From Atribacterota bacterium (GTDB lineage Bacteria; Atribacterota; Phoenicimicrobiia; Phoenicimicrobiales; Stramentimicrobiaceae), in NCBI GenBank assembly GCA_028717805.1, contig JAQUNC010000010.1, positions 1-54,554 on the forward strand: 54,554 bases of DNA. Direction: 5' to 3'. Position 1 is the stretch's first letter. Every line of letters starts with the position of its first letter. A model generated the notes under the pieces. It was not told where the DNA came from. It made no database searches and saw only the letters and a program-made list of their open reading frames with translations. Position numbers and translations under genes: made by a program. Below, piece by piece: positions 1 through 28,873 of the stretch.

Positions 1-321
1 TAATGGATGTCCCTCTTCAACACAGTTGCTCCGAAATTTGGCCAGCAGCCGGATAAACAGTTTCAATCCTTGTTTTAATGGATGTCCCTCTTCAACCATA
101 TCATCTCAAAAAAATACCTATATATAGTAGAGGGGTTTCAATCCTTGTTTTAATGGATGTCCCTCTTCAACATTTGATTTTGAAAGTATAGCAAAGGAAT
201 TATATCGAAGTTTCAATCCTTGTTTTAATGGATGTCCCTCTTCAACAATAATCAGGTACAGGGTAATTAGTGTTAAATATTTTGGTTTCAATCCTTGTTT
301 TAATGGATGTCCCTCTTCAAC
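1..321 (-). CRISPR. CRISPR array, type I-B repeats, truncated by window edge
   Basis: Four complete 37-bp repeats lie at 60-96, 135-171, 210-246 and 285-321, with the last 21 bp of a fifth at 1-21. On the plus strand the repeat begins GTTTCAATCC and ends CCTCTTCAAC; all copies are identical over the visible part. The four spacers (22-59, 97-134, 172-209, 247-284) are all exactly 38 bp and unrelated to each other. On the minus strand the repeat ends in GGATTGAAAC, the usual 3' end (crRNA 5' tag ATTGAAAC) of type I-B repeats. Transcription is therefore inferred to run right to left, co-directional with the cas genes, making 247-284 the leader-proximal and probably newest spacer. The array continues beyond base 1. 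Spacer targets cannot be determined here. Confidence 0.97.
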
Positions 322-488
322 GGTAATTATTAAAAAAATATATATTTATAAGGTTTCGGTAATTTTTTTGTAGGAATATTTTTTGAAAAATTAGCCTCAT
401 TTTTCAGTAAATATTGAAGATTTTCAATTTTTTTACATATTTTTTCCATTGTCAAACCTTTACAAAAAAAGGATTTCATAACTATACT
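322..488 (-). promoter_or_regulatory. CRISPR leader
   Basis: This very AT-rich 167-bp gap separates the cas4 stop from the first repeat and lies upstream of the array in the inferred transcription direction, so it is the leader. On the minus strand a TATAAA element (346-351) sits about 25 bp before the first repeat, but its -35 partner is poor. A perfect TTGACA (450-455) has no good -10 at 16-18 bp. The promoter is therefore not fixed. CGGTAATT occurs twice (321-328 and 357-364), the first copy directly at the repeat boundary. No gene is visible here. Confidence 0.7.
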
Positions 489-1103
489 CTATTTCAAACA
501 GATATTTTTATAACAACAATCAATACATCTCACTTTATAGGCAGTTGCCTTGGGGAAATATCCATTTTGAATGATAAATATCATCTCTTTTATTATATCA
601 CTTATTTTCTCAAAATCTTTATCTTTAAAGGTAATTTCTTTAAGCAGATTCTTACTTCTAACATAACAAAGGAAACCCTTTTTCACTTGACAAGCATAAT
701 TATCCATAATTAAGAGTCCATAAAGTATCGATTGTATTCTATGAGTTCTATACAATCGTTCCTGATACTCAGTAAATTTATAATCTAAAGGTGCCATTGT
801 GTCATCTTCCAGAAATAACACTTCATCTATTTCACCTTTAAGGTGATATCTTTCTGAAACTAGATATACCAGGTTTTCCCTTTTCACACACCCAATTTTT
901 CTTCTTAGATAATCTCTATTTATCTTAGCCTTTTTCTCATGTATTTTCCTACCCATCAAAACTTTAAATCTTTTCTCCTCATGTTGGAGTATATTCAAAC
1001 AATGCATAAAATAAATGAAACGTGGGCAAAACAAATATTCAATTATCTCAGAAGGAGTAAGAAAAATTTGTTCTTTAGTTTCTAAAGATATCTTTTCTTC
1101 CAT
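489..1103 (-). CDS. cas4: CRISPR-associated exonuclease Cas4
   Basis: Cas4 is a RecB-family nuclease with a 4Fe-4S cluster that trims prespacers and helps select the PAM side during spacer acquisition with Cas1-Cas2. The 204-aa protein has the N-terminal cluster cysteine in CPRF (C26) and a C-terminal cysteine group (C193, C196, C197, C202). RecB nuclease residues are visible as H55, D93 in GEIDEV, D107 and K109 in LDYK, and Q124. The ATG is preceded by AGGTGAT at good spacing. It follows cas2 after 75 bp and is the last cas gene before the leader; in many I-B loci cas4 instead precedes cas1, so the position is a little unusual. Confidence 0.93.
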   Translation of the reverse strand: MEEKISLETKEQIFLTPSEIIEYLFCPRFIYFMHCLNILQHEEKRFKVLMGRKIHEKKAKINRDYLRRKIGCVKRENLVYLVSERYHLKGEIDEVLFLEDDTMAPLDYKFTEYQERLYRTHRIQSILYGLLIMDNYACQVKKGFLCYVRSKNLLKEITFKDKDFEKISDIIKEMIFIIQNGYFPKATAYKVRCIDCCYKNICLK

Positions 1104-1178
1104 TCTGATTTATCACCTGCTAAACAAGCAATTTTACTTTATCACATCATCACATTAAGATTAAGATATATTGAGATA

Positions 1179-2449
<1,271 letters not shown>

Positions 2450-2462
2450 AACCACTGCCTTC

Positions 2463-3131
2463 TTATTCTTTTAATTGCTTGATTGTGCCAAAACCACGGG
2501 AGACAGATTTGCCCAGACCAATATAATCCGGAAGATGAAAATTTACCTGAAATGTACCTAAAAATCCAATAATCGATTTACCTTTAAAGTCAATTGTAGT
2601 CTCCATTAGATTAACCTCCGCTAAAATTCTTTTTTCAACAAAATAATTAAAAGTTTTTGCAATTGACAAAATATTTTGAATTAGGATACTTTTTAACTGA
2701 TCATCTCTCTCATGGAAAGAATATTCTTTATATCTTCTGTAATTTTCTTCATTTAAGGCAAACCATGGATTAAGAAATTCATATTTTAAATATTCACCAA
2801 TTTCATTGGTAATTTCAAACAATTCTTCTTTAATGAAAATCTCTTTACTGTAAATCTGGTATTTATTATCATCTAAATTAATCCAATCGTATTGATTATA
2901 AATACTCTGTAATACTTCTACTCCTTCTGCTAAACCTAAAATCATCTTTCTTCCATTAATTTCCTTATATTGTATTCGGGGATATTGATATAAAATTTTA
3001 TTGTTTCCTAAATGATGGTGTAACAAAAGGTAACTATTAAATTTACGGGCAAAGAATCCTCTTAATTTCTCTGCCTCCCCCATTATAGGTTTATCTGATT
3101 CCATGATTAATTTCATTGTTTTTATAAGCAT
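2463..3131 (-). CDS. cas6: CRISPR repeat endoribonuclease Cas6
   Basis: Cas6 cuts the pre-crRNA within each repeat and leaves the 8-nt ATTGAAAC-type tag. The 222-aa protein has the family's C-terminal glycine-rich loop (IGLGKSVSRGFGTIK, residues 204-218) and an N-terminal histidine cluster (H38-H40) where Cas6 enzymes often carry their catalytic histidine. The catalytic assignment is inference. It sits between cas3 (12-bp gap) and cas1 (13-bp gap to the preferred ATG), whereas many I-B loci have cas6 first. No strong ribosome-binding site precedes the first Met, and Met6 is an alternative start. Confidence 0.88.
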   Translation of the reverse strand: MLIKTMKLIMESDKPIMGEAEKLRGFFARKFNSYLLLHHHLGNNKILYQYPRIQYKEINGRKMILGLAEGVEVLQSIYNQYDWINLDDNKYQIYSKEIFIKEELFEITNEIGEYLKYEFLNPWFALNEENYRRYKEYSFHERDDQLKSILIQNILSIAKTFNYFVEKRILAEVNLMETTIDFKGKSIIGFLGTFQVNFHLPDYIGLGKSVSRGFGTIKQLKE

Positions 3132-3143
3132 GTGGTTTCCAGG

Positions 3144-5705
3144 CTAAAGAATTAGCGAGCCTCCTTCAGATACCTCTTTATTTCTTTTAAAGCCAGTTTC
3201 TGGGTTGTAGTAATTTTCCTGTATAATGTCTTCTTTGGAAATTTTAGGAATATAACTAATACCTTTATTATCTATGAAATCACCTGCATATTGATAGGGT
3301 ATAGAAATTACATAATCATAAAAATCTTTTCTTATTTTTAAGAACTCGTTCTTTCTTTCCCATAGATTCTTAATTTCTTTTATTTCTTGATATCTTGTGT
3401 ATATCCTTTGAGCTTCATCGTCCAATTCCACAAAAATATCAACATTATTCCAGTCTTTCTCTTCAATAAGTTTAAACTCAGAGATTGGCTTCCTTCTTTT
3501 ATTATCTGGATTCTTATCATAAAAATATAAACTATAAAGCGACTTAGTTAAATTAGTTTCTATATTTGATTTTTCTTTTGCCTTCATAAAATAATCATTT
3601 ATTAAATCTAAAAAATCTTTTTCATATATAATTTTCTTACCATTTAATATTTCTGTCACTATATTTAATAAAACTTTATCGTAAATATTAGCATACCAAT
3701 ATTCTGAACCGCTATCTCTCATTTTCATTAAATTCACCAAATAAGTATTACCTTTGTGCAATTTTTTATTCCTATTACACCTGCCAGCTACCTGAATGAT
3801 AGAATCTAATGGTCCCAGATCCCTATAAACACATTCACAATCTATATCAACACCTGCTTCAATTAATTGTGTTGAAATTATTATAGCTTTATGATTATTT
3901 TCAAGTCTTTTTTTTATTAATTCTATTCTTTCTCTTCTTATTTTTGGAATGACATTGGACGAGAGATAATATAAATCATATTTGTAATTTCCCTTAATAA
4001 TTTTATTTATTATCAATTTCTTTTTCTCTTCTTTGTAAATAATTATTTCATTTTCTTTAAATTTGTCTCTTGAAAGAAGAGAATAAAATTCCAACGAAGA
4101 TCCTATTGTATTAAACACAAACAAATATGAATTTTGAGACCAATTAACTAGACTATTGTAAAAATTTAATACATATCGTTTATTAAGATTTACTTCTAAA
4201 CAAACACGGTTTAATTCAGGCTTACTAAAATATTTTTCATAATCTTCAACTAATTCAATGTATTCTCCATCTTGAAATATCAATGGTTTTGTAGCAGTAA
4301 TCAGAATAACCCTACAGTTATAGTATTTAGTCATTCCAATTAGAACTTCTCGAACTAGATTCCAGTATTTGACAGGTATGTTTTGGATCTCATCTAAAAG
4401 AATTATTGAATTAACTATATTGTGAAATTTTTTTAAACTACAGTTTTTATGACCTATTAATGTGTAAAATAGTTGAATGAAAGTGGTAACAATTATTTCA
4501 GATTCCCAAGATTCAATTAGTGCCAAACTTTCTTCAACATCTCTTTCTCTATCTACTCCTTCTGTTTTATAGAAAATCTCCGAAAGGTGGTGATGTTTTA
4601 ATAAATATTCATTTTCATATGCTCTAAAATCCTCAATTTGATTTAATACTTTATCAAATACAGTATAATTCTGATCAATAATACTGGTAAAAGGTAAAGA
4701 ATATATTATTCGTGGTTCATTTTTTAAATTGAGATATTTTTTTAATTTATTTCTTAGTAATAAAGCAGCTGAAAGAGAGGCCAAAGTCTTTCCAGTTCCA
4801 GTAGGTGCAGTCAAGGTATAAATTTTTTGATGTTTATTTTTAGGATCTCCTATATTTCTCAAAACTGACTTTCGAATTTCATTCCTTATGCAGTTAATAT
4901 TATTTTCGCCTTCTTCTTTAAATTCATCTTTGTTCAAATAATTTTCTACCAGATTTTCAGGAAATATTTTTCGCTCAATCTCCTTAACGCCACCTGCATA
5001 CTTTTTATCTGAATCAATCAAGACAGAATACAGTAGTAATATTATAAAATAATATTGCAATGTTTTCACATTAGCCATTCTAAAAGAATAAAAAGAAATA
5101 TCTAATTCTTTTAAAATTTCCTCAATGTCAGAAGAGTATTTTATATTTTTTTTATATTTTTCTAGATTATTAAAAATTATTTCTGAAGAAATAGGGTAAT
5201 TTATAAATAATGCATTGTATTCTTTTTTTATTTGCTTTTTATTCTGCCAGATATCTTCAAACTGTTTGCTTATATATCTAAAATCAGAGTCAAAAAGTTT
5301 CTCTACTGAAATATCATCTTCAATATCACCCAAATCCAAATGGTGCCTTTTAACTACAAAATAAGAAAATAGTGGTAAGAATTCATATGGAATAATGTTT
5401 TTTAGATTCTTAGTCCTGACATATTCATAGGCAACCTCAAACATAAATAAAGCAGAAATTAATCCATGGCGTGCTAAAAAATCATTCTTATCGCACATTC
5501 CTTTTAGTTTTTTTTGGAAAAAAGTAGTATATTTACCAAAGTCATGGGATATACCAATAAGATATGAAATATCAGCAAGAATTAACTCATCTATCTCATC
5601 TAACCTTTTTGCTTGAATAATTCTCTTGCTTCTACTCCCTACATCCTTTAAATGATCTTTCAATAATATTTTATTGGGTTCTAGATGCGAATAAAACTCT
5701 ATCAT
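3144..5705 (-). CDS. cas3: CRISPR-associated nuclease-helicase Cas3 (HD + SF2 helicase)
   Basis: Cas3 is recruited by target-bound Cascade to nick, unwind and degrade DNA. The 853-aa protein fuses both parts. The N-terminal HD nuclease shows H54-D55 in ISHDFGK, H80, the RHH at 120-122 and D231/D233. The superfamily 2 helicase has Walker A APTGTGKT (300-307), motif II DEIQ (438-441) rather than DEVH, motif III TATKP, and C-terminal motifs STQLIEAGVD and QVAGRCNR. HD and helicase motifs are all intact, so the effector looks functional. It lies 20 bp after cas5 and 12 bp before cas6. The ribosome-binding site is weak (AAGAGAAA). Confidence 0.95.
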   Translation of the reverse strand: MIEFYSHLEPNKILLKDHLKDVGSRSKRIIQAKRLDEIDELILADISYLIGISHDFGKYTTFFQKKLKGMCDKNDFLARHGLISALFMFEVAYEYVRTKNLKNIIPYEFLPLFSYFVVKRHHLDLGDIEDDISVEKLFDSDFRYISKQFEDIWQNKKQIKKEYNALFINYPISSEIIFNNLEKYKKNIKYSSDIEEILKELDISFYSFRMANVKTLQYYFIILLLYSVLIDSDKKYAGGVKEIERKIFPENLVENYLNKDEFKEEGENNINCIRNEIRKSVLRNIGDPKNKHQKIYTLTAPTGTGKTLASLSAALLLRNKLKKYLNLKNEPRIIYSLPFTSIIDQNYTVFDKVLNQIEDFRAYENEYLLKHHHLSEIFYKTEGVDRERDVEESLALIESWESEIIVTTFIQLFYTLIGHKNCSLKKFHNIVNSIILLDEIQNIPVKYWNLVREVLIGMTKYYNCRVILITATKPLIFQDGEYIELVEDYEKYFSKPELNRVCLEVNLNKRYVLNFYNSLVNWSQNSYLFVFNTIGSSLEFYSLLSRDKFKENEIIIYKEEKKKLIINKIIKGNYKYDLYYLSSNVIPKIRRERIELIKKRLENNHKAIIISTQLIEAGVDIDCECVYRDLGPLDSIIQVAGRCNRNKKLHKGNTYLVNLMKMRDSGSEYWYANIYDKVLLNIVTEILNGKKIIYEKDFLDLINDYFMKAKEKSNIETNLTKSLYSLYFYDKNPDNKRRKPISEFKLIEEKDWNNVDIFVELDDEAQRIYTRYQEIKEIKNLWERKNEFLKIRKDFYDYVISIPYQYAGDFIDNKGISYIPKISKEDIIQENYYNPETGFKRNKEVSEGGSLIL

Positions 5706-5725
5706 TTTCTCTTTTTAAACATTTC

Positions 5726-6550
5726 TTACATAAACATTATATTTTCACTTAAGTGTCTACCTTTTTCTAAATAAGTTACAGAATAACATGAAAAACCATA
5801 CTTTAGTTTGATATTGAATGGTTTACAATTAACTTCACATAAATAAACACAGGGTTCCTTAGGTATTCTACCATTATAAAAAACTGTAGGCATCTTCTCA
5901 GTTAGATATTGAAAATTATTTCCATTAAAATTTAATTCAATTTCTTTTAGTTTGCAAACGCTGTTTAACTCTATTTCTTTACTTAAACTTCTAGTTACTT
6001 TACCTTCGTCAACATACTTAATAGAAGCCAACAACTCTGATATACCAAAATAGGGAGGAAATACATAGTGATTATTTTCTAATCGTCTTTTTAAGTCAGT
6101 ATATATTCTGCTATCTGTATGGTAAAAATATATTCTATATATTATATTGTTAGTAGTATCAGGAAGTAATAATTCAATAGGGATTTGGGTACTACCTATT
6201 TTCCCTGTCATCATTTTCAAGAATAAATCATATGTTTTTCTTGGAAAGTCATCTGTAGCAAGATAGTTTACGGTTTGCATCATTTTTCTAATCTTAGATC
6301 TCATTGAAACAGTTACAAAACATTTCTTTTCATCAAATTTTTCATAATAAGTATCCTCTATAATATTTGTATGTTTTTCACTTGGGATTCCTAAAAGTCC
6401 TGCTATTAGCCCAACAATGACTGTTCTAGGAGGAAATAAATAACTTAAAGAAGAAGAATTTGTATAGTATTTTCTAAAATGTGCTATTGGACCTTTTATA
6501 TCAAAAATTAATATCCTATCTCTATCAAAAGGAAAACTACTAATTGGCAT
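5726..6550 (-). CDS. cas5: Cascade subunit Cas5 (type I-B)
   Basis: Cas5 is a RAMP-fold Cascade subunit that caps the 5' tag of the crRNA next to Cas8. The 274-aa protein has the Cas5 N-terminal pattern: an early beta strand (ILIFDIKGPIAHFRK) followed by the glycine-rich stretch around VIVGLIAGLLGIP, where Cas5 proteins typically read P-P-R-T-x-x-x-G. The ATG has AAGGGA upstream. The gene follows cas7 after 58 bp and precedes cas3 by 20 bp, the standard cas8-cas7-cas5-cas3 order of I-B effector modules. Confidence 0.92.
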   Translation of the reverse strand: MPISSFPFDRDRILIFDIKGPIAHFRKYYTNSSSLSYLFPPRTVIVGLIAGLLGIPSEKHTNIIEDTYYEKFDEKKCFVTVSMRSKIRKMMQTVNYLATDDFPRKTYDLFLKMMTGKIGSTQIPIELLLPDTTNNIIYRIYFYHTDSRIYTDLKRRLENNHYVFPPYFGISELLASIKYVDEGKVTRSLSKEIELNSVCKLKEIELNFNGNNFQYLTEKMPTVFYNGRIPKEPCVYLCEVNCKPFNIKLKYGFSCYSVTYLEKGRHLSENIMFM

Positions 6551-6608
6551 TTCTATTCCCTTCTTAATATTTTTAATTATTTAATATTCTTAACCAATTA
6601 ATAACCTT

Positions 6609-7598
6609 TTATGGATTGAGTACCATTAATTTATCTTCATTAACATTCCATCCAGTAATGCAAAAATCTCTATGTTTCCAAAAATGTATTTTATCTATCT
6701 TATAGTCATGGCCCATTATTTTTTTTGTTAAATCTGATAAATCTAATTTGTAATCATTACAAGACTTAAAATTTGCTGTATCTTCAAATTTTATTTCCTC
6801 ATTATCTATATTTACAATTTTTAAATCATCTCTTAGATCTCCTAAGAAAAACTCAGAGTTATTATATTCTATTCGAATATATAATCGTGGACATTGCCCC
6901 ATTTTACTACGTGTTGTTGCCTCCAAAGGTATGGCATTAATCATTGCCTCATCGAAAAGCTTTATATCATCATCCGTAAGATTAGTTTGAACTCCTCTTC
7001 CGGAACTGACTATTCCATGGAATGCAATTAAAGAATAACTTAAACGATAATCTTTACCCATTGCCCCTGCACTTTTTGCTGATTCTTTTTCTTCTGTTAT
7101 TTCGCCCGTTTGAAAATGTGAGGTTATTCCACTTGATTCCATAGGACCCATAACCTTATTTAAAGAATATCCCCAATTAAATTGGATAGGTCCTGTAAAC
7201 GTTACATTTCCTTTCCCTTCTTTATATCTAACATCTGGAATTATGGCTCCAAACATTCTTACATCTATAGCTTGTTCTATAAAATCTATTATTTCTTTAT
7301 CAGTAACATCTATTTTAGCTTTGTTCTCTTTTCCTAATATGATAGCAAAACTCGTTTTTGCATTGATTGGACTTCCTTTCTTGCCTTTAGGAACAAAAAT
7401 CTTTTTATTTTTATAATCAACAAAATAATCTCTTATATATCTCTTTAACCTTACATCTGAAACAAGATTAATATTTCGATTGTAATCCATTCTAGGTTTG
7501 TTCTCATCGTCTGGATCACCATTTGGATTAGATATTTTTGCATCATAAATAAAAAGTATATCACTATTGTTTTTAATAGTTTCAATTTGATTATTCAT
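6609..7598 (-). CDS. cas7: Cascade backbone subunit Cas7 (Csh2 family)
   Basis: Cas7 polymerises along the crRNA spacer to form the Cascade backbone. The 329-aa protein begins with the diagnostic Csh2/Csd2-type motif NPNGDPD (residues 24-30) followed by a region rich in charged residues and SDVRLKRYIRD. GIVSSGRG in the middle is another family hallmark. The start has GAGGAGG 10 nt upstream, located inside the end of cas8b, and the two genes are separated by only 2 bp. Translation is probably coupled. Confidence 0.95.
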   Translation of the reverse strand: MNNQIETIKNNSDILFIYDAKISNPNGDPDDENKPRMDYNRNINLVSDVRLKRYIRDYFVDYKNKKIFVPKGKKGSPINAKTSFAIILGKENKAKIDVTDKEIIDFIEQAIDVRMFGAIIPDVRYKEGKGNVTFTGPIQFNWGYSLNKVMGPMESSGITSHFQTGEITEEKESAKSAGAMGKDYRLSYSLIAFHGIVSSGRGVQTNLTDDDIKLFDEAMINAIPLEATTRSKMGQCPRLYIRIEYNNSEFFLGDLRDDLKIVNIDNEEIKFEDTANFKSCNDYKLDLSDLTKKIMGHDYKIDKIHFWKHRDFCITGWNVNEDKLMVLNP

Positions 7599-7600
7599 TT

Positions 7601-8212
7601 TTATTTATCCTCCTCATTCTTATCTAATTTAATTTTTTCTAAATGTTTTCTAGCTTCTGAATATTTATTATTTTCTGCAAAATTTTTTGCTTTATTAATT
7701 TCTATTTCTACTTCTTCCATATTCTCCCCTCTTTCTTTTTTTTGTTCAATAAGTTCTAATATTTCCCCCAATTTTTTGTAATATTTCTCTTTGCTTCTCT
7801 TCTTGATCAGATAATTTAAGAAGGCGTAACCTGACAATATATAAAACACATTTTCCTGAATAGATAATTCATAATTCTTTATACTATTATCCATTAATAA
7901 TTTAATAGCAGAATAAATTTCTTCATCATAATGTAATCTATTATATTGTTTTAATTTTTCAAGAATATCGTTTGTCAAACTATACAATTTTTCTTTCCCC
8001 ATTCCTTGAAAGTTAATTTTATTCAAAATTGGTTTATTTTTTATATCTTTTCCGCTTTGAGCATTTCCAATTTCTCCAACAAGAAAACCAATTAAAAATA
8101 AAGCTTTCTTAAATTCATTATTATATATTTCTACACTATCCCAATAATTCAGAATATCTTTTGGAATCAATCCTTCAATTTCGCGAGTGTTAACTTTATT
8201 TCTACTATGCAT
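7601..8212 (-). CDS. probable internally translated Cas11b small subunit (within cas8b)
   Basis: Inside cas8b an ATG at 8212-8210 is exactly in frame (codon 522) and is preceded by AGGAGG (8225-8220) with a 7-nt spacer, as strong as any start signal in the operon. It would give a 203-aa, helix-rich protein identical to the Cas8b C-terminus. Independent translation of Cas11 from within cas8/cas10 genes has been shown for types I-B, I-C and I-D, where it supplies the Cascade inner-belt subunit. The ribosome-binding site is seen in the sequence; the product is inference from those families. The Gly-Gly codons spelling AGGAGG could be coincidental, but the spacing argues otherwise. Confidence 0.7.
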   Translation of the reverse strand: MHSRNKVNTREIEGLIPKDILNYWDSVEIYNNEFKKALFLIGFLVGEIGNAQSGKDIKNKPILNKINFQGMGKEKLYSLTNDILEKLKQYNRLHYDEEIYSAIKLLMDNSIKNYELSIQENVFYILSGYAFLNYLIKKRSKEKYYKKLGEILELIEQKKERGENMEEVEIEINKAKNFAENNKYSEARKHLEKIKLDKNEEDK

Positions 8213-9775
8213 ATTTATACCTCCTAGTATTTTTAACTTATTAAAGAATAACAATAAAAAGTTAAATACGAGAACTTTGTTAACGAAATCTTGTTTTGTC
8301 CAGATATTATAGCCCTCTCTTTCAAATTTAATAATCCTGAGGGTTTCTAAAAATTGATCAATTAAAAAATTATATTTAATTCTTTTGTTAGAAAATATTG
8401 CGTCAATAATATGAAGATATTTTGAATAGCCAGAATAATTGCCTTTCTCTTCTCTTTTAACAGGGATGCAACTCCATATTTGTCCTAAATCTATTTTAAA
8501 TGAGTTATCGCTTTCATGATACTCATTTACTGAAATAAATAGTTCTTCTTCTACTCTTCTAATAAAATCTAATCTACTTGGGGGAATATCTTTAATTAAA
8601 TTCAATATTTTAAACTCATTACTTCCGGTAGGTTTATAATAAAATAAATAGTTTATTATAAAAGCATTTTTCTTTAAATCTCTAAATTTTAACAAATTTT
8701 TCCTAAATTCTGCAATAGAATTTATATTAGTTATAGAGTTACTTGAGAATTCAATAAATTTTGAAAATTCTTCTATATCCAAATTATCTATTTTAAAGAA
8801 AAAATTTGGAATAATATATACACTTAATCCACCTATTTTTGAATTAAGATTACTGTTAATAAAATTCTCTCCAATCATTAGATATTGATAACATTCCTTA
8901 CAAATATTATAGTTCTTTTTGAATCGACCATCTAAATTAGAAGAAAAACCAATTTTATCAGTCATATAGAACTTAAAATTCAAATTTGTGGCATTACTTG
9001 TCGTTGGTGTATTTTTATTATTACAAATAGAACAAATGCCTTTTTGATAATTATCTTTATAATCACTATGTTCATCAAAAAGTAACCCCACCTTTAATTT
9101 GTAAATTAAATCAATATAATCTTTCATTTTGCAAACAAAATTATTACCTATTTTAATTGTATAAAGAGAGACTTCATTACTATTTAAATTTATCCTATAA
9201 AGTAGATTTTTTATTATCTCTTTAGTAAAAACATCAATATGTTTTTTAATCTCTTTTTTTTCATTTGATGTTTGTATTTCATTCTCTATTTCTTTTAACT
9301 TACTGAAAGTTTCATTAGAAAAGTTTAATCTATCTGGATTAAGATAATAAAATATTTCTTTCTTGTTTTTATTTATGAATTCCTTTGTAATAAAAAAATC
9401 ATCAACAATTTTATTCAATAAATCTTTTAACTCACTATTATTTATTTTATCTCTCATCATTGGTAATGATTTTGTTAAAATATTATCTGCTCTATTACTT
9501 GTTATATTAATTGGAGGTTTATTACCTTTAAAATTATCAACCCATAAATATTCTATTCCAGAATCTTTACCCCCTGCATTCACTTGTTCAATTTCAATAT
9601 CTATTTTCTTATTCTTTGTATTGAAATTAAAAAAAACAATATACTGCTTAATTTTTCCATCTTTTTTATTATTCTTCTCTTCTAAAACTCTTAAACAAAT
9701 GCCTTTAAGGAATGTATCAAGATTTAAATCATCTTCAAGAGCATATTCCCCAATATTTCTAATTGCCTCTATCAT
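7601..9775 (-). CDS. cas8b: Cascade large subunit Cas8b (Csh1/TM1802 family)
   Basis: Cas8b is the large Cascade subunit that recognises the PAM and recruits Cas3. The 724-aa length, its place directly before csh2-type cas7, and a four-cysteine zinc-finger pattern (C248, C251, C292, C295 in CSIC and CKEC) identify the TM1802/Csh1 family. A strong GGAGGTC lies 4 nt before the ATG. The C-terminal third is helical and Lys/Glu-rich. It contains an in-frame ATG at codon 522 with its own perfect Shine-Dalgarno, listed separately as a probable Cas11. Sequence similarity in this family is low, so the assignment rests on context plus the zinc finger. Confidence 0.9.
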   Translation of the reverse strand: MIEAIRNIGEYALEDDLNLDTFLKGICLRVLEEKNNKKDGKIKQYIVFFNFNTKNKKIDIEIEQVNAGGKDSGIEYLWVDNFKGNKPPINITSNRADNILTKSLPMMRDKINNSELKDLLNKIVDDFFITKEFINKNKKEIFYYLNPDRLNFSNETFSKLKEIENEIQTSNEKKEIKKHIDVFTKEIIKNLLYRINLNSNEVSLYTIKIGNNFVCKMKDYIDLIYKLKVGLLFDEHSDYKDNYQKGICSICNNKNTPTTSNATNLNFKFYMTDKIGFSSNLDGRFKKNYNICKECYQYLMIGENFINSNLNSKIGGLSVYIIPNFFFKIDNLDIEEFSKFIEFSSNSITNINSIAEFRKNLLKFRDLKKNAFIINYLFYYKPTGSNEFKILNLIKDIPPSRLDFIRRVEEELFISVNEYHESDNSFKIDLGQIWSCIPVKREEKGNYSGYSKYLHIIDAIFSNKRIKYNFLIDQFLETLRIIKFEREGYNIWTKQDFVNKVLVFNFLLLFFNKLKILGGINMHSRNKVNTREIEGLIPKDILNYWDSVEIYNNEFKKALFLIGFLVGEIGNAQSGKDIKNKPILNKINFQGMGKEKLYSLTNDILEKLKQYNRLHYDEEIYSAIKLLMDNSIKNYELSIQENVFYILSGYAFLNYLIKKRSKEKYYKKLGEILELIEQKKERGENMEEVEIEINKAKNFAENNKYSEARKHLEKIKLDKNEEDK

Positions 9776-27787: not shown

Positions 27788-28873
27788 TTATAATCTAACA
27801 CTTTTTCTACTTTCTGAAGACCTTTTAATAGCATCTATTGCCCTGAGCGTCTCCAGGGCGTCAGAGGCAGATATTTTAGCTTTTGCTTTCCCTGCTATTA
27901 GCTCACAGAAATGCTTTAATTCTTCCTCCAGAACATCAAAACGTTCAACTAAAAGGGTCTGTTTTTTTAATGGTCTATGCCATCCTTCTCCAAATTCTTT
28001 TTGGTAAGAGAATAGGGTCAGAGAGGGAAAGGCAAGGCTAGCCTTCTTACCAAAGAATAAGTAACAATCATAAAGACTCGGATAGAAGAAGGAATATTCC
28101 TGAGTACAGGCTTCGTAAAACCAGGGAGAGGGACAGGTATCTGTTAAAAACACATTTGCCAGGGCACCATTTTTAAATTTGATATTTATCACGCCCGTAT
28201 CTTCAACCTCATTGCCCCGGTACTTATTGGTGATATAGGCTTGAATTTCCTCAATATCTCCAATGATGTATCGAAGGTCATCTATATCATGAATGGTATT
28301 GATTAACAGCGGGCCACCATATTTTCTATCTATTCGCCAGGAACTTTCAAAATAATGGTCAGGTTTTTTCGCTACCCAGAGCATATTAGCACCAACAATC
28401 TCTCCTAATTCTCCTTGTTGCACTGCCTCTCTAGTTCGCTGGATAATTTTAGAAAATCTTCTATGATGAGCAACCATAAATTTAATTTGAGAATCCTCTA
28501 CCATTCCCGTTATCTCCTCCCCTTCCGGGAGAGTACTGGCTATAGGCTTTTCCAACAGCAAAGGAATCCCATATTTAGCTGCTTCCCGGGTAACCTCTAC
28601 ATGTAAGTCATTAGGTAAAGCAGCAATTATCCCATCTAATTCCTTTCCCATCTTCTTTAACAGATCTTTGTATTCTTTAAAGATTTTAATATCTGAATTT
28701 AATAATTTAGACTTCTCATTTACTTCTGATTGGTCTACACTATATGATTTTAAGGCTTTCTCCACATTTAAATCAGCCACTGCAACGAGTTTAGCAAAAT
28801 TACAATTCATCAATCTATGTACAAACTTAAATCCATGAGAAAGCCCCAGCACTGCTAATCTTGGTATGGACAT
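27788..28873 (-). CDS. Gfo/Idh/MocA family oxidoreductase
   Basis: This 361-aa NAD(P)-dependent sugar or polyol dehydrogenase has an N-terminal Rossmann fold and the family motif LLLEKPIAS, whose lysine is catalytic. The C-terminal part has the conserved SWRIDRKYGGPLLINTIHDID, including the Asp and His expected near the active site. The glycine-rich loop reads GLSHGF, slightly atypical. It is the last gene of the catabolic island, 11 bp after the MDR dehydrogenase, with GAGGAGG before the ATG. The family includes inositol 2-dehydrogenase, but the substrate is not defined by sequence. Confidence 0.9.
   Translation of the reverse strand: MSIPRLAVLGLSHGFKFVHRLMNCNFAKLVAVADLNVEKALKSYSVDQSEVNEKSKLLNSDIKIFKEYKDLLKKMGKELDGIIAALPNDLHVEVTREAAKYGIPLLLEKPIASTLPEGEEITGMVEDSQIKFMVAHHRRFSKIIQRTREAVQQGELGEIVGANMLWVAKKPDHYFESSWRIDRKYGGPLLINTIHDIDDLRYIIGDIEEIQAYITNKYRGNEVEDTGVINIKFKNGALANVFLTDTCPSPWFYEACTQEYSFFYPSLYDCYLFFGKKASLAFPSLTLFSYQKEFGEGWHRPLKKQTLLVERFDVLEEELKHFCELIAGKAKAKISASDALETLRAIDAIKRSSESRKSVRL

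Follow-up and report, generated by a model that had tools for sequence, protein, structure and literature searches.

An internal start in a type I-B cas8b gene is likely to make a separate Cas11b subunit

The cas8b gene of a type I-B CRISPR-Cas locus from an Atribacterota bacterium raises the question of whether one gene makes one Cascade protein or two. The window is the whole stretch of DNA analyzed, 54,554 nucleotides of contig JAQUNC010000010.1. The locus at its start is a complete type I-B system composed of cas8b, cas7/Csh2, cas5b, cas3, cas6b, cas1, cas2, and cas4 with an adjacent array, and a WYL-domain regulator lies upstream. The features are listed below, with anti-Shine-Dalgarno (anti-SD) duplex energies for the starts where given.

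1..321, no strand assigned: end of a CRISPR array that runs off the contig, with the 37-nt repeat GTTTCAATCCTTGTTTTAATGGATGTCCCTCTTCAAC and a 75-nt period
489..2455, minus strand: cas1, cas2, and cas4 (TIGR00287, TIGR01573, TIGR00372)
2463..3131, minus strand: cas6b (PF17955, PF17262)
3144..5705, minus strand: cas3, HD and helicase (TIGR01587, TIGR01596)
5726..6550, minus strand: cas5b (TIGR02592)
6609..7598, minus strand: cas7 (Csh2; TIGR02590), energy -12.0 kcal/mol
7601..9775, minus strand: cas8b, the Csh1/TM1802 large subunit, 724 aa (PF09484, TIGR02556, TIGR02591)
7601..8212, minus strand: putative internal in-frame cas11b, 203 aa, ATG at 8212 (from the sequence, the homologue alignment, and an all-helical model)
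8220..8225, minus strand: Shine-Dalgarno (SD) AGGAGG, 7 nt 5' of ATG522 (from the sequence; energy -11.5 kcal/mol)
7601..7807, minus strand: C-terminal helical extension past the part covered by the Pfam family, about Cas8b residues 657-724 and Cas11b residues 136-203

Cas8b matches the Cas8b/Csh1/TM1802 profiles of the type I-B large subunit along their full length. Scores are 358 bits for PF09484 (Cas_TM1802), 186 for TIGR02556, and 184 for TIGR02591, all above the curated cut-offs. The internal ATG is at 8212-8210 on the minus strand and is codon 522 of the 724-codon ORF 9775..7601. Its frame ends at the cas8b stop. The minus-strand sequence around it reads ...AAATACTAGGAGGTATAAATATGCATAGT..., where AGGAGG is separated from the ATG by the 7-nt spacer TATAAAT. 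The codon, SD, spacing, and 203-aa product given in an earlier note on this DNA are exactly those of the sequence.

The earlier note also ranked the internal signal level with the strongest starts of the operon. At -11.5 kcal/mol it does exceed the start of cas8b itself (-10.2), but it falls slightly below cas7 (-12.0), whose SD GAGGAGG overlaps the final codons of cas8b/cas11b. The start of cas5 is at -5.7 and those of the other cas genes are at -4.2 or weaker. The SD of ATG522 ranks first among 301 internal in-frame ATGs from the 44 window ORFs of at least 150 aa. Predicted RNA folding at the internal ribosome-binding site is unremarkable, with accessibility in the 36th percentile among cas8b codons, and lends the start no support.

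A further internal ATG at 7720, within the C-terminal extension, has an SD-like GAGGGGAG (-8.2 kcal/mol) and would give a 39-aa product. It was rejected as an internal start because the relatives with the extension have a residue other than Met at the aligned position. Second in SD strength among the internal ATGs of the window is the one at 28504 (GGGGAGGAGATAACGGGAATG), in a 361-aa minus-strand ORF and 238 aa before its end. It could be where that ORF truly starts, or another internal start.

The position of ATG522 coincides with a predicted domain boundary. The AlphaFold model of full-length Cas8b has a mean pLDDT of 85.7, with confidence falling at residues 521-530 and helices from 531. 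The internal start thus sits in a low-confidence loop that precedes a confident all-helical domain. The Cas11b model has a mean pLDDT of 90.7 and is all-helical with no strand, which bears out the helical protein proposed in the earlier note. The best nine PDB matches of the full-length model are type I-C Cascade chains, the best of them Cas8c (E 3e-7). For the Cas11b model alone, the top four fold matches are also type I-C Cascade chains, although non-significant, with a best E of 0.73 (range 0.7-2.8). In a sequence search of solved structures, Cas8b had no match and a profile of the Cas11 domain returned only leucine-rich and other unrelated proteins.

A separate cas11 elsewhere would count against an internal start that supplies this subunit. 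ORF inspection found no small ORF for a stand-alone cas11 between the operon genes. Of the Cas11 families, Csm2 (PF03750) and Cse2 (PF09485) were the two searched for in the 97%-complete assembly, and neither was found. A paralogue of the Cas8b C terminus was likewise absent from this assembly. Neither the operon nor, as far as Csm2, Cse2, and C-terminal paralogues are concerned, the assembly showed the separate cas11 that the earlier note named as evidence against its claim.

Cas8b homologues were gathered from whole genomes, and 57 non-redundant sequences were used. Relatives with more than 60% protein identity, close at the nucleotide level, were not found, so the homologues used are more distant. 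The scan zone was the inter-domain linker aligned to Met522, in which in-frame ATG, GTG, or TTG codons with an SD were scored at a threshold of -6 kcal/mol. The best linker start has a median anti-SD energy of -10.6, compared with -1.0 for the remaining in-frame ATGs of these genes. At the linker, 49/57 homologues (86%) have a strong SD and start, versus 5.6% of zones of equal size taken from other parts of these genes. One homologue (L051) has ATG495 with AGGAGGTGA just beyond the first aligned zone, and its inclusion gives 50/57 versus about 6-8% in control zones. The best start was picked in signal and control zones alike, which puts the two on an equal footing. After the zone was widened and the sequences were clustered, 47/53 clusters pass at 90% identity, 36/39 at 60%, and 22/24 at 45%, where 7-9% is expected, with shared ancestry persisting between clusters.

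Most sub-threshold homologues retain a 4-5-nt SD match at the correct spacing, e.g., GGTGA in L071. L030 is the only one of the 57 scanned without any SD, and in its genome a strong SD is found at just one ORF start within the fetched stretch. The nearest relatives (54-56% identity) retain the ATG and have weaker SDs (-2.8 to -7.0), a point against the internal start.

Two distant Cas8b relatives are on plasmids, and no relative was found on viral contigs. One homologous cas8b (L070, G432:C26) is apparently broken by a TAA within the Cas11 part. In another (L007/L065, G029:C60), frame breaks lie in the 5' half, and the intact 3' part keeps the Cas11 start.

The SD and ATG could be incidental, reflecting a Gly-Gly linker and a Met that the protein needs, with Cas8b purely a large-small subunit fusion of the kind seen in types I-F and I-G. 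The Gly and Met are indeed conserved as residues among the nearest relatives, and synonymous shuffles of some sequences often reach comparable energies. Across the family, however, the SD encodes differing residues in differing frames. The AGGAGG core is read as x-GG-x in 15 sequences, as EE or EV in 27, and in the third frame in one; it is therefore kept as nucleotide sequence. The internal start codon is mostly ATG and otherwise GTG or TTG. The last two are read as Val or Leu in the full-length protein, and a start codon is thus kept even where the residue in Cas8b differs. The residues directly after the Met form a variable linker, and the enrichment over zones of the same genes holds after clustering. 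When upstream codons were recoded synonymously, -6 kcal/mol was reached in 51% of shuffles versus 89% observed (Fisher P about 4e-9, indicative only as the sequences are related). On the window's own sequence the same test gives P 0.08. It is weak in single sequences because the encoded residues already favor purines, and its strength lies in the family. An incidental signal is accordingly judged very improbable. The check proposed in the earlier note, whether the SD and ATG are conserved beyond what the protein needs, thus comes out in favor in 50/57 homologues and in differing codon frames. On this alignment, the SD and start are conserved at the DNA level across nearly all Csh1/TM1802 cas8b genes sampled, both bacterial and archaeal.

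The product predicted for the window is longer than its counterparts. Other homologues have Cas11 products of typically 130-160 aa; a C-terminal extension of about 68 aa, predicted by AlphaFold to be helical, brings the window Cas11b to 203 aa. The PF09484 match stops at Cas8b residue 652, and a profile search with the extension gave no family match below E 0.05. Among the full-length homologues aligned, only two archaeal relatives (L069 and L071) have the extension. In this lineage, the bacterium and its relatives found in the Methanoperedens order, Cas8b and all Cas11b copies alike would carry it, and it might give the Cascade belly a function that other type I-B complexes lack, a tentative and rather unlikely suggestion. 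Such a function may be, e.g., to add contacts to DNA, to Cas3, or to an anti-CRISPR.

This length bears on whether the internal ribosome-binding site is real while its product is something other than a stoichiometric Cas11, e.g., a regulator of Cascade assembly or a protein with a role tied to the extension. A product of 203 aa with about 68 extra residues would fit such a role better than the usual 130-160 aa. The core domain (residues 27-131) is nevertheless the same as in all relatives, and the type I-B systems tested use this core domain as a Cascade subunit (PMC11096372, PMC11899642). This explanation is considered even less probable than an incidental signal.

The preferred reading, at a probability of roughly 0.93, is that cas8b is a two-product gene whose internal start separately makes the Cascade subunit Cas11b. 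The support found here is the signal itself, its position at a domain boundary, its nucleotide conservation, the predicted fold, and a search that found no other cas11. Initiation at 9775 would give full-length Cas8b, the large subunit. Independent initiation at the internal SD/ATG at 8212 would give the 203-aa Cas11b, whose sequence is that of the C-terminal domain of Cas8b. Several copies of Cas11b and the Cas8b C-terminal domain would then align as the belly of Cascade, and this belly would hold the non-target DNA strand in R-loop formation. Translation in this organism, the copy number, and the R-loop role are carried over from published systems by analogy. The central claim of the earlier note, a separately made Cas11b, thus appears well supported at the sequence level by the conserved SD and start and by the lack of a separate cas11 in the searches made.

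Internal translation of Cas11 is reported to be conserved in types I-B, I-C, and I-D (PMC10212523, citing McBride et al. 2020), in agreement with the earlier note, which calls it established for these types. In Haloferax volcanii, Cas11b is made from internal Met545 of Cas8b, as demonstrated by tagging, mass spectrometry, and mutation (PMC11899642). The window resembles this system in having a cas8b large-subunit gene with an in-frame ATG in its 3' third and no separate cas11 found, and in a control search H. volcanii likewise gave a match to the Cas_TM1802 family. The H. volcanii SD is weak (GGATG) in contrast to the strong AGGAGG of the window. Its short product has been shown experimentally, whereas that of the window is predicted from DNA.

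The type I-B system of Synechocystis sp. PCC 6714 has an internal ribosome-binding site in cas8b and a structure with three Cas11b (PMC11096372). The window shares the internal site and, as predicted, a Cas11b with the sequence of the C-terminal domain of Cas8b. The Synechocystis Cas8b belongs to another branch (Cmx8/Myxan), and its Cas11b is smaller than 15 kDa. In type I-C, Cas11c is also reported to come from an internal start (PMC11899642, PMC10212523). Type I-C Cas8c/Cas11c (PDB 8dfs, 8dex, 8g9t) is the best fold match of the full-length window model, but Cas8c is of a different subtype and has about 10% sequence identity to the window Cas8b.

In Thermotoga maritima I-B1, whose TM1802 gives the family its name, an internal Cas11 start is predicted in cas8b1 as it is here, and no product was made in E. 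coli (PMC13199841). This silent start counts against the reading that cas11b is expressed. The authors attribute it to a suboptimal ribosome-binding site or start codon, and Cas8b co-purified only when a stand-alone Cas11 was given (PMC13199841). The T. maritima Cas11 is 15 kDa, compared with 24 kDa for the window Cas11b, and the window has a strong SD. Given the H. volcanii, Synechocystis, and T. maritima precedents, such a signal within a Csh1/TM1802-type gene is not new in kind. The novelty stressed in the earlier note was overstated, as this branch already has a published case (PMC11899642) and the prediction in T. maritima (PMC13199841).

The whole type I-B operon (window 1-9775) is syntenic with three loci in genomes of the Methanoperedens order (L085, L086, and L087) at about 42-65% identity, and the CRISPR repeat of L085 is 97% identical to that of the window over 32 nt. 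The two carriers of the extension are among these relatives from genomes of the Candidatus Methanoperedens order. Within the phylum of the window, the closest Cas8b relative is only ~31% identical, and a genome of the window's own genus (G001) carries a different cas8b lineage. This pattern suggests that the locus moved horizontally between archaea and bacteria, or else that contigs were misbinned or are contaminants.

The analysis turns a guess from a single genome into a family-wide, DNA-level result on the Cas11b ribosome-binding site. Annotation by the longest ORF overlooks cas11b, and the Cas11 start positions obtained for each homologue are directly usable. Rebuilding such systems in a foreign host would call for Cas11 to be supplied separately or for the internal start to be retained.
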